IMG/VR virus record: IMGVR_UViG_3300044797_000146
Location: 1-35,201 of that record
Strand: one strand, 5' to 3'
DNA from: a virus
DNA: 35,201 nt
The notes under the pieces: generated by a model
Told to the model about the DNA's origin: nothing
Seen by the model: only the letters and a program-made list of their open reading frames with translations
Database searches by the model: none
Program-made: the position numbers and the translations under genes
In this document: in pieces, positions 2,225 to 4,080 of the stretch
Layout of the letters: each line of letters starts with the position of its first letter
Position numbering within the stretch: position 1 is the stretch's first letter

Positions 2225-2632
2225 TTAGGGTGGGGCGGGGGGAGGGTGACGGGCAAGCCAAATCGTCGCCCGGTCGCCCCGGAGACGGGCCATCGGGCAG
2301 TCCCCTTGCCAATCCTCCCCCGTGTAAAGGCATTCCCCCGCCTTCCACCGTTCTAGGGCCACCCGAGCCTGGCACGGCAGATCGTCGTTATGGCACGGAA
2401 ACGGCCTCATGAGTTGCCAGACACCGACCTCCCCCTTCTTCCCGCGGGCGCGCGTGTCGTAGCCGCTCTCGAAGCCCCCGATCGATGTGAGGTCTATCCA
2501 GTCCGCCGGCGACGAGCTCGAGGCGAGCACGGCCGACGCCACGGGCCCGTAGCTCGTGATCCGCCAGAAATTCGACGTCGGGCAAAAGTCGAGCATCGAC
2601 CAGGCGATCCACGCGAGGATCGCCAGTCTCAC
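2225..2632 (-). CDS. SLT-like lysozyme with N-terminal anchor, lysis enzyme
   Basis: A 135-residue protein. Residues 1-16 (MRLAILAWIAWSMLDF) are a hydrophobic signal or signal-anchor segment. Residues 50-76 carry the core motif of soluble lytic transglycosylases and goose-type lysozymes: GGFESGYDTRARGKKGEVGV followed by WQLM, with Glu55 as the presumed catalytic acid. The role would be to cut peptidoglycan glycan strands in the periplasm. Four cysteines after the active site (FPCHNDDLPC, GEC, GDC) suggest disulfides. It is shorter than typical SLT domains and its Pro-rich end is odd, so a frameshift near the 3' end cannot be excluded. The GTG start overlaps the upstream stop as GTGA. It is the last gene of the leftward late series. 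A hydrophobic N-terminus would allow signal-arrest-release export. Confidence 0.7.
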   Translation of the reverse strand: MRLAILAWIAWSMLDFCPTSNFWRITSYGPVASAVLASSSSPADWIDLTSIGGFESGYDTRARGKKGEVGVWQLMRPFPCHNDDLPCQARVALERWKAGECLYTGEDWQGDCPMARLRGDRATIWLARHPPPAPP

Positions 2633-2811
2633 GGCTTGACCGCTCCCATCGACCCGGAGCTCGGCCGACGTGGCTGTGTGGGCGCCTCCCGAGCGAACTT
2701 CCGGTCGAGCTCGTCAAGCTCGTCAAGTAGGCGGATGACGACCTTCGCCGCTTCGCCCGTGTCGCTCAACCACGTGGCGCGGAGGTGTGCGCGTTCCTCG
2801 AGCGCCATCAT
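2629..2811 (-). CDS. Small helical protein
   Basis: A 60-residue protein of unknown function, strongly helical from residue 3 to about 42 (MALEERAHLRATWL, AAKVVIRLLDELDELDRKF) with a heptad-like spacing of Leu/Ile that suggests a coiled coil. The tail is Pro/Ser-rich. It starts at the first of two adjacent ATGs, overlapping the stop of the 42-residue membrane peptide as ATGA, and its own stop overlaps the lysozyme GTG as GTGA. Its position between a membrane peptide and a muramidase suggests a lysis accessory or spanin-like part, by context only. Confidence 0.55.
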   Translation of the reverse strand: MMALEERAHLRATWLSDTGEAAKVVIRLLDELDELDRKFAREAPTQPRRPSSGSMGAVKP

Positions 2812-2936
2812 CGCGACCTCAACCCATCGCCCATGGCGTACCCGTGCCCCTCGTGGCGCGTCCTCGTCGGCCGACAAGGCGAACAGACGAGGAGCACGCC
2901 CAGGGCGACGAGGACGAGCACGAGAACCGTTCTCAT
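2808..2936 (-). CDS. Small membrane or lipoprotein-like peptide
   Basis: A 42-residue peptide. Residues 1-18 are a strong hydrophobic segment (MRTVLVLVLVALGVLLVC) ending in Cys, then SPCRPTRTRHEGHG and a short polar tail. The Cys after the hydrophobic run resembles a lipobox, but Val at -1 is unusual, so a single-span membrane peptide is equally possible. ATG overlaps the upstream stop as ATGA and the peptide's stop overlaps the next ATG as ATGA, so it fits exactly between two genes. It could be an outer-membrane spanin subunit or other lysis accessory. Function is not established. Confidence 0.55.
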   Translation of the reverse strand: MRTVLVLVLVALGVLLVCSPCRPTRTRHEGHGYAMGDGLRSR

Positions 2937-3142
2937 CCGGTCTCGGGGTCTTGCGCGATGCGAGCTCGGACGGCCGCGTCCTTCGCCTCAAGCAACTTCC
3001 GGAGGGCGACCGTGCGCTCCGGGTTGCGAGGAAGCATCGTCATGACGACGTTTGCGAGCTCGGCGAAGGGCTTCGAGACCTCCGCCAGATGGGGAGGCAG
3101 ATGTTCCCACTTGAAGAACTGGACGATATGTTCGCCGCTCAT
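2933..3142 (-). CDS. Small phage protein, Acb2/Tad1-hairpin-like
   Basis: A 69-residue protein with two predicted helices joined by a Pro turn: HLPPHLAEVSKPFAELANVV (about residues 14-33) and NPERTVALRKLLEAKDAAVR (about 40-59). The second helix strongly resembles the segment pattern P-x-(S/N)-x-E-(R/K)-(S/T)-x-AL-x-x-LEA of a widespread phage family that includes Acb2/Tad1-type hairpin domains. Characterised members of that family are sponges binding cyclic nucleotide or gcADPR signals of CBASS and Thoeris defence. The match is from remembered family patterns, so the sponge role is an inference; the family also contains many uncharacterised proteins. ATG overlaps the peptidase stop as ATGA. 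Confidence 0.7.
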   Translation of the reverse strand: MSGEHIVQFFKWEHLPPHLAEVSKPFAELANVVMTMLPRNPERTVALRKLLEAKDAAVRARIAQDPETG

Positions 3143-4080
3143 GGCGAGGAGGGCGCCGGCGCGGAGGGGAGAGGTTGCGTCGAGACCGGCGCGCCCAAGC
3201 TCGCCAGGTAGTTCTTGAGGGCCCCGAGGTCGTAGCCGGCCGGGCACTTGCCGGTGACGGACGTCACGACGTTGGACCCGAGGAACGCGATCACCCCACC
3301 CCCGGCTGAGGGCACGAGGTATTGAGCTTGCGCCGCCGGCGTGAGCTGGATCGGCGGGTCGTCGATCCCCCACTCGGTGAGGAGCAGGTTCCCGTTCGCG
3401 AGGTAGCTCGCCCCTCCGAAGCCATGCCCGTTGGACGGATCGGGAGCACCGGCGGCGTCCCACACGTCGCCGCCGCTCTCCTCGGACTCCCAACCATCCG
3501 GAAGGCTGGCCCACATGAAGACGCCGTCCGCGAGCCAGATCGCTTGCTTCATGGAGGCGAGGTTCGTCGCGTCGACGGTGACCGCGGCGAGGAGCGTCGA
3601 GCCGTCCGGGTAGGCGGCCGCGGGTTGCGAGCTCGACCCGAGACGGTAGCCCACGAGGGCTAGGGGGTCGGTCCCCTGGTCCGTCGCCTCATTGCCGATG
3701 ACGAAGCCCGTCACCGCCGAGTAGGCGGCGAGCGCTTGCGCCGTCGTCGGGACCCAGGGCGCGCCCGCGTTGCACCCGCGCATCGCGGCGAGGTGTAGGT
3801 CCTCCGCGATCACGCAATCGCCCACGGGGCCCTGTCCCACGGGGAGCGTCGAGTCGGGTCCGTTTCCGAGCATTGTCGCGAGGGCCGCAGCCGCCGGCGT
3901 GATGTAGTCGACCGACGTCGGCGCCGCAGGGAGGTCCCTGAAGACCTCATGCCAGAGCCCGAACTTCGCGGTATGCGCGGCGAGCGCTTCGGGGGTCGGA
4001 ACCTTCACCGTCCCGACGAAACGATCGACCCCTCGCACGCGATAGACCTTGATCTTCCCGTGACCTCGCTTCTTGCTCAT
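3139..4080 (-). CDS. Papain-like cysteine peptidase, candidate endolysin
   Basis: A 313-residue protein. After a basic start (MSKKRGHGKIKVYRVRGVDR) it has the arrangement of papain-like peptidases: VGQGPVGDCVIAEDLHLAAM at residues 81-100 with Cys89 as candidate nucleophile on a helix, and GHGFGGASYLANGNLLLTEWG (218-238) in two parts, with His219 followed by a strand and the Trp-Gly that usually follows the active-site Asn. No signal peptide is visible. A GGAGG Shine-Dalgarno nine bases before ATG 4080 indicates strong independent initiation. Its place between holin-like genes and the muramidase suggests a peptidoglycan endopeptidase used at lysis. A virion-processing or host-targeting protease is an alternative. 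Residues 290-313 are Pro/Ser-rich. Confidence 0.65.
   Translation of the reverse strand: MSKKRGHGKIKVYRVRGVDRFVGTVKVPTPEALAAHTAKFGLWHEVFRDLPAAPTSVDYITPAAAALATMLGNGPDSTLPVGQGPVGDCVIAEDLHLAAMRGCNAGAPWVPTTAQALAAYSAVTGFVIGNEATDQGTDPLALVGYRLGSSSQPAAAYPDGSTLLAAVTVDATNLASMKQAIWLADGVFMWASLPDGWESEESGGDVWDAAGAPDPSNGHGFGGASYLANGNLLLTEWGIDDPPIQLTPAAQAQYLVPSAGGGVIAFLGSNVVTSVTGKCPAGYDLGALKNYLASLGAPVSTQPLPSAPAPSSP

Follow-up and report, generated by a model that had tools for sequence, protein, structure and literature searches.

The small gene P0001, located in a viral DNA segment of 35,201 bases (an IMG/VR virus record, here referred to as the window), encodes a protein that is best read as a stand-alone, divergent sister branch of the Acb2/Tad1 helical-hairpin superfamily, with a homology that is detected by profiles and not by a direct Pfam match. 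The profile comparisons indicate that P0001 is very probably a distant member of this superfamily, which would accordingly be wider than its Pfam model (PF24729, Acb2_Tad1_hairpin).

P0001 is a true gene. Its translation, MSGEHIVQFFKWEHLPPHLAEVSKPFAELANVVMTMLPRNPERTVALRKLLEAKDAAVRARIAQDPETG followed by a stop, comprises 69 amino acids and contains at residues 38–53 the pattern P-x-N-P-E-R-T-x-A-L-R-K-L-L-E-A, on which the original prediction of an Acb2/Tad1-like protein had drawn. The coordinates of the gene and its immediate neighbours (Table 1) reveal ATGA-type overlaps at both junctions, which place P0001 in a late operon; a Mu-type portal gene and a tail-fibre gene are located on the same strand of the window. 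The upstream neighbour had earlier been taken for a peptidase. This was not confirmed, as the sole PHROG match of the protein is PHROG 19005, of unknown function, and it has no Pfam family and nothing convincing in the PDB. An open reading frame at window positions 2225–2632 on the minus strand contains GGFESGYDTRARGKKGEVGVWQLM, which by eye resembles a lytic transglycosylase motif; it has no match in Pfam or PHROG.

Table 1. Location of the P0001 gene, its conserved core codons and the adjoining genes in the window.
Feature	Positions	Strand	Basis
P0001 gene	2933..3142	-	translation; PHROG 1761/5120; AF2 model; profile-profile link; BFVD fold matches
Codons of P0001 residues 46-53 (A-L-R-K-L-L-E-A)	2984..3007	-	conservation in 154 relatives; recheck on a tblastn-derived set of 23 phage-record members
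Upstream 313-aa protein; its stop overlaps the P0001 start (ATGA)	3139..4080	-	sequence, PHROG, Pfam and PDB comparisons
Downstream 42-aa ORF with hydrophobic N-terminus; its start overlaps the P0001 stop	2808..2936	-	ORF list and sequence

In profile searches P0001 matches PHROG 1761 (E = 1.1e-26) and PHROG 5120 (E = 8.4e-20), both of unknown function. Relatives were found by tblastn in 317 of 50,697 phage records, and further ones occur in at least 586 confirmed stretches of IMG/VR, 193 stretches of GTDB bacterial genomes and 25 of 72,556 plasmid records. The hosts of the phages that carry the family span many bacterial phyla; one relative comes from Microcystis phage Mwe-JY08. Scans of P0001 against Pfam, NCBIfam and PADLOC gave no match, searches of PDB sequences with P0001 or with its 72-member profile retrieved only chance helical matches, and our literature search retrieved no paper naming PHROG 1761 or PF24729. 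One of the closest relatives (76% identity) is located on a Myxococcales MAG contig, L084, which also carries weakly similar sheath and baseplate genes; these likenesses suggest a myxobacterial host for the phage represented by the window.

The relationship to the Acb2/Tad1 hairpin was assessed by comparing three groups of sequences, namely the P0001 family, an Acb2-proper group consisting of T4 Vs.4 with its prophage and viral relatives, and a TKLEEA branch, which was gathered by a DNA pattern and then confirmed as PF24729. The profile search proposed along with the original prediction gave a divided answer: the Pfam model PF24729 has no match to P0001 up to E = 1 (gathering cut-off 27 bits), while a profile–profile comparison connects P0001 to the TKLEEA branch of the same Pfam family. 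Several relatives of P0001 score 13–18 bits with PF24729, the best being L139 with 18 bits (E = 0.0034). The hhalign alignment of the P0001 family with the TKLEEA branch covers the whole length (62 columns) with a score of 32.2, a probability of 86% and E = 5.5e-6, compared to a maximum of 17.8 among 100 column shuffles and 8.9 for the reversed control; a repeat from the stored alignments yielded a score of 28.4 with E = 6.4e-5 over 61 columns. Scored with the TKLEEA-branch HMM, the P0001 family has a median of 8.05 bits (best 23.6) compared to -1.1 for shuffles, whose maximum was 5.1. When 160 loci were translated in six frames and the resulting 27,168 pieces were scanned blind with this HMM, 14 of the 16 matches were P0001-family genes, and a later scan of phage records with the TKLEEA branch retrieved the P0001-family member of Brevibacterium phage AGM5 (E = 0.001). 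The PHROG database provides cross-links in both directions, from P0001 to phrog_1454 and from the PF24729 member L282 to phrog_1761, each with E = 1.1e-3. The TKLEEA-branch profile also matches the solved structures of ‘Acb2 homolog 43’ (9ptq, six chains), T4 Vs.4 (7uq2) and Tad1 (7uav, 8kb*).

Direct sequence and profile comparisons of the P0001 family with the Acb2-proper clade gave no significant match, and the superfamily link between P0001 and Acb2 is thus seen only via the TKLEEA branch. When the KLLEA motif was masked, the signal of the TKLEEA profile fell to a median of 1.3 bits compared to -1.6 for shuffles, and the gathering of that branch with a TKLEEA pattern similar to KLLEA could favour this motif in the comparison. 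A search for PF24729 found no match in 246 genomes of one phylum, around an actinobacterium, and in 249 genomes of another, around a Bacillales MAG; the control genomes were equally without a match, and the result says nothing of absence.

The AlphaFold2 model of the P0001 monomer, obtained with 72 relatives, is all helical and has a mean pLDDT of 93. Its helices at residues 17–36 and 41–64 are two long antiparallel helices forming the hairpin that had been predicted from the sequence, and a short N-terminal helix, also present in Acb2, is added at residues 5–10. A genuine PF24729 member modelled as a control has the same three-helix layout (4–10, 20–41 and 46–69), and the helix starts of the two models agree with the register of the sequence alignment. 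A Foldseek search of the viral library BFVD with the P0001 model returned the protein's own family first and then mostly entries labelled as Acb2/Tad1 hairpin domain-containing, with probabilities mostly 0.8–1.0 among the better ones and E values of 0.1–3. The same search of the PDB gave nothing usable and listed neither Acb2 nor Tad1. With the control model, T4 Vs.4 (7uq2) came first, Tad1 third and Acb2 sixteenth, which means that the direct PDB fold test is passed by a true member and failed by P0001.

A residue-by-residue comparison shows both shared and replaced positions. The TKLEEA branch (PHROG 1454, including 9ptq) has, like P0001, a short N-terminal helix and two long helices in identical register, a similar length, and in common with it the N-terminal aromatic residue (W12/Y), L29-A30, P38, E42, A46, K49-L50-E52-A53 and A57. 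The aromatic residue, a tyrosine in Acb2, is retained as Y, W or F in 94% of the P0001 family. In the combined alignment, P0001 agrees with the TKLEEA branch at E42, K49, L50, E52 and A53 and with Acb2 at R59. The differences concern the SRE/DQR arginine at the start of helix 3 (100% of TKLEEA and 92% of Acb2 sequences), which is P41 in P0001, the threonine seven residues later (100% and 96%, respectively), which is R48, and the MW pair of the TKLEEA branch, which is D55-A56; the arginine is not universal in PF24729, as T4 Vs.4 has D there. Helix 2 has a basic residue in both reference groups, K in Acb2 and R in the TKLEEA branch, whose position is occupied by S23 in P0001 and by S in 96% of its family. 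P0001 also differs from the TKLEEA branch in falling below the Pfam cut-off and in matching PHROG 1761/5120 instead of 1454.

The P0001 family possesses an invariant set of its own, consisting of H14, E42, R48, K49, E52, K54, D55 and R59. The most conserved stretch is R48–D55, with A-L-R-K-L-L-E-A as its core. RKLLEAKD was one of the search seeds for the IMG/VR and GTDB sets, which inflates the 100% invariance that this stretch shows there. We therefore rechecked the conservation in 23 phage-record members found by tblastn with no exact-peptide seeds. L15, E42, R48, L50, E52, K54 and V58 were present in all 23, H14 in 22, and K49, D55 and R59 in 20–21 (R59 in 20).

Acb2, the CBASS sponge known from Pseudomonas phage p26 and as T4 Vs.4, is a homohexamer that blocks CBASS by binding cyclic di- or trinucleotides in pockets located between its protomers. 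With Acb2, P0001 shares the helix arrangement and the arginine of the last turn (R59), and T4 TKLKEASMWACRA is in register with P0001 RKLLEAKDAAVRA. P0001 does not match Acb2 significantly when their sequences or folds are compared directly, has Ser23 at the position assigned to Lys26, and lacks the C-terminal proline/Phe tail. We take Tyr11 and Lys26 of Acb2 to line its cyclic dinucleotide pocket, and this numbering fits our alignment. Two protomers build the Acb2 pocket from their N- and C-terminal helices, and a salt bridge is made to the phosphates (PMC10419184). In Tad1 (Thoeris anti-defence 1), an N-terminal antiparallel beta-sheet lies ahead of the helices (PMC12043709). The C-terminal hairpin of Tad1, with its SRE...T..EEA.MW helix, has a relative in the PF24729 branch to which P0001 is similar; P0001 differs from Tad1 in having no beta-sheet domain and in the replacement of the SRE arginine and T. 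The family link of the original prediction thus stands as a distant superfamily relationship, on the hhalign match, the helix register and the BFVD results, and does not stand as membership in Acb2 or Tad1. We rejected P0001 as Acb2 or Tad1 proper on the lack of a match to PF24729, to the Acb2-proper group and to Acb2 in the PDB, together with the replaced sponge residues.

The superfamily members that have both a name and a solved structure act as oligomeric sponges for nucleotides (PMC12043709, PMC11722364), and every solved relative that carries a name among the PDB matches of the TKLEEA-branch profile is a sponge. For this reason the mechanism with the best support is sponge activity towards a different ligand, and we consider P0001 a candidate sponge for a nucleotide-type defence signal other than that of Acb2, a function to which we give an even chance. 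From the superfamily kinship we infer oligomerisation, signal binding, an anti-defence role and the type of ligand. The long hairpin helices would bring several copies of P0001 together in a small soluble oligomer, whose inter-protomer pockets would capture and retain a small nucleotide-type immune signal that the infected host produces, perhaps a cyclic oligonucleotide or a derivative of ADP-ribose. With the signal sequestered, the host effector would not be activated. The ligand is probably not that of Acb2, because the pocket-side residues of Acb2 and PF24729 are replaced by a different and equally invariant set.

The late region had been regarded as an unusual place for a counter-defence gene, a view that does not fit the many different genome positions occupied by the P0001 family. 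Relatives are located between head-tail genes in DumpsterDude, next to the portal gene in martha 12B12, between head morphogenesis and capsid genes in an Acinetobacter phage, and between two lysin A genes in Jumbo; others lie beside lysin/holin, topoisomerase, DNA repair exonuclease or HNH genes, in a polynucleotide kinase region, or upstream of terminase. The 1642 open reading frames around family genes fall into 1470 clusters, with terminase and portal the commonest and no recurrent partner. The family is thus moron-like, spread across phages at unrelated genome positions, and an accessory counter-defence gene would be expected to show just such a distribution with no fixed partner.

Some members of the family carry additional domains. 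In jumbo phages of Erwinia and Dickeya the hairpin is joined to a P-loop domain, and in Ochrobactrum phage OH it has a Cys-rich N-terminus. In Erwinia phage pEa_SNUABM_20 (L390:1743-2195) and its Alexandravirus relatives the hairpin follows an N-terminal P-loop domain (ILGAVGSGKSAVYSKI); some sister phages have two genes annotated at that place, and pEa_SNUABM_5 has the P-loop gene alone. Another relative (L012:5791-6183) has the hairpin behind an N-terminal stretch that looks beta-rich (GKFYTTRTGGVVGPVRAG...) and is reminiscent of the Tad1 arrangement; this N-terminal part has no homologue in the phage records. We sought PF24729 fusions sharing the beta-like extension of L012 or the P-loop domain of the Erwinia phages and found none. 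At L049:5675-5986, a short open reading frame directly upstream of a P0001 relative ends in HHHRMMAAAKLEELFFWIRAGMARGEGQS and scores weakly with PF24729-branch profiles, and two different hairpin proteins possibly lie side by side there.

It is very improbable that the resemblance to the superfamily arose by chance between two unrelated short helical hairpins, with P0001 representing a phage-specific family of separate origin. Profile statistics are weak for short helical proteins, neither Pfam nor the PDB, searched by sequence and by fold, gives a direct match, and the signal weakens after masking of KLLEA, all of which would fit such a coincidence. The match is, however, co-linear over the whole length with a matching helix register, lies far above the column-shuffled, reversed and residue-shuffled controls, and is accompanied by independent links from PHROG and BFVD. 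We also consider it unlikely, to a lesser degree, that P0001 is a small structural or morphogenesis factor of the head, neck, tail or lysis system with no connection to defence. Its coupling to the late operon in the window and the head-tail, portal, capsid and lysin neighbourhoods of its relatives are consistent with that role, but the position is not conserved and extends to the topoisomerase, DNA repair, HNH and kinase contexts listed above, most phages do not have the family at all, and the moron-like behaviour with no recurrent partner counts against a structural function.

The main rival to the sponge accepts the same superfamily origin and assumes that the sponging of nucleotides has been lost. 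The hairpin could instead have come to bind a protein, such as a host enzyme or a defence protein, as a small adaptor or inhibitor, and the contact surface would be the invariant charged helix R48–R59. This scenario would account for the replacement of residues conserved in PF24729 alongside the invariance of another charged set, for the lack of a direct match to Acb2, and for the fused members. A set of residues that stays invariant in phages infecting so many bacterial phyla nevertheless points to a target that is just as invariant, and host and defence proteins usually diverge; the solved superfamily relatives that carry a name are, moreover, all sponges. We regard the adaptor or inhibitor as rather unlikely, although more plausible than a structural role, and keep a sponge with a different ligand as the preferred reading.

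The papers that we consulted name Acb2, Tad1, Tad2 and Acb4 as published sponge families. Our results lead us to speculate, more tentatively than for the sponge function as such, that PHROG 1761/5120 could represent an unrecognised and very widespread clade of phage sponges, with a new invariant charged pocket and a signal bound by neither Acb2 nor Tad1. If this is true, a sister family present in hundreds of phage records, with hosts in many phyla and beyond the reach of the current Pfam model, would supply ready counter-defence candidates, and the exchanged residues would point to a signal outside the range of the known sponges. The occurrence of such small genes in regions as different as those for head, tail, lysis and early functions would then be explained as well.
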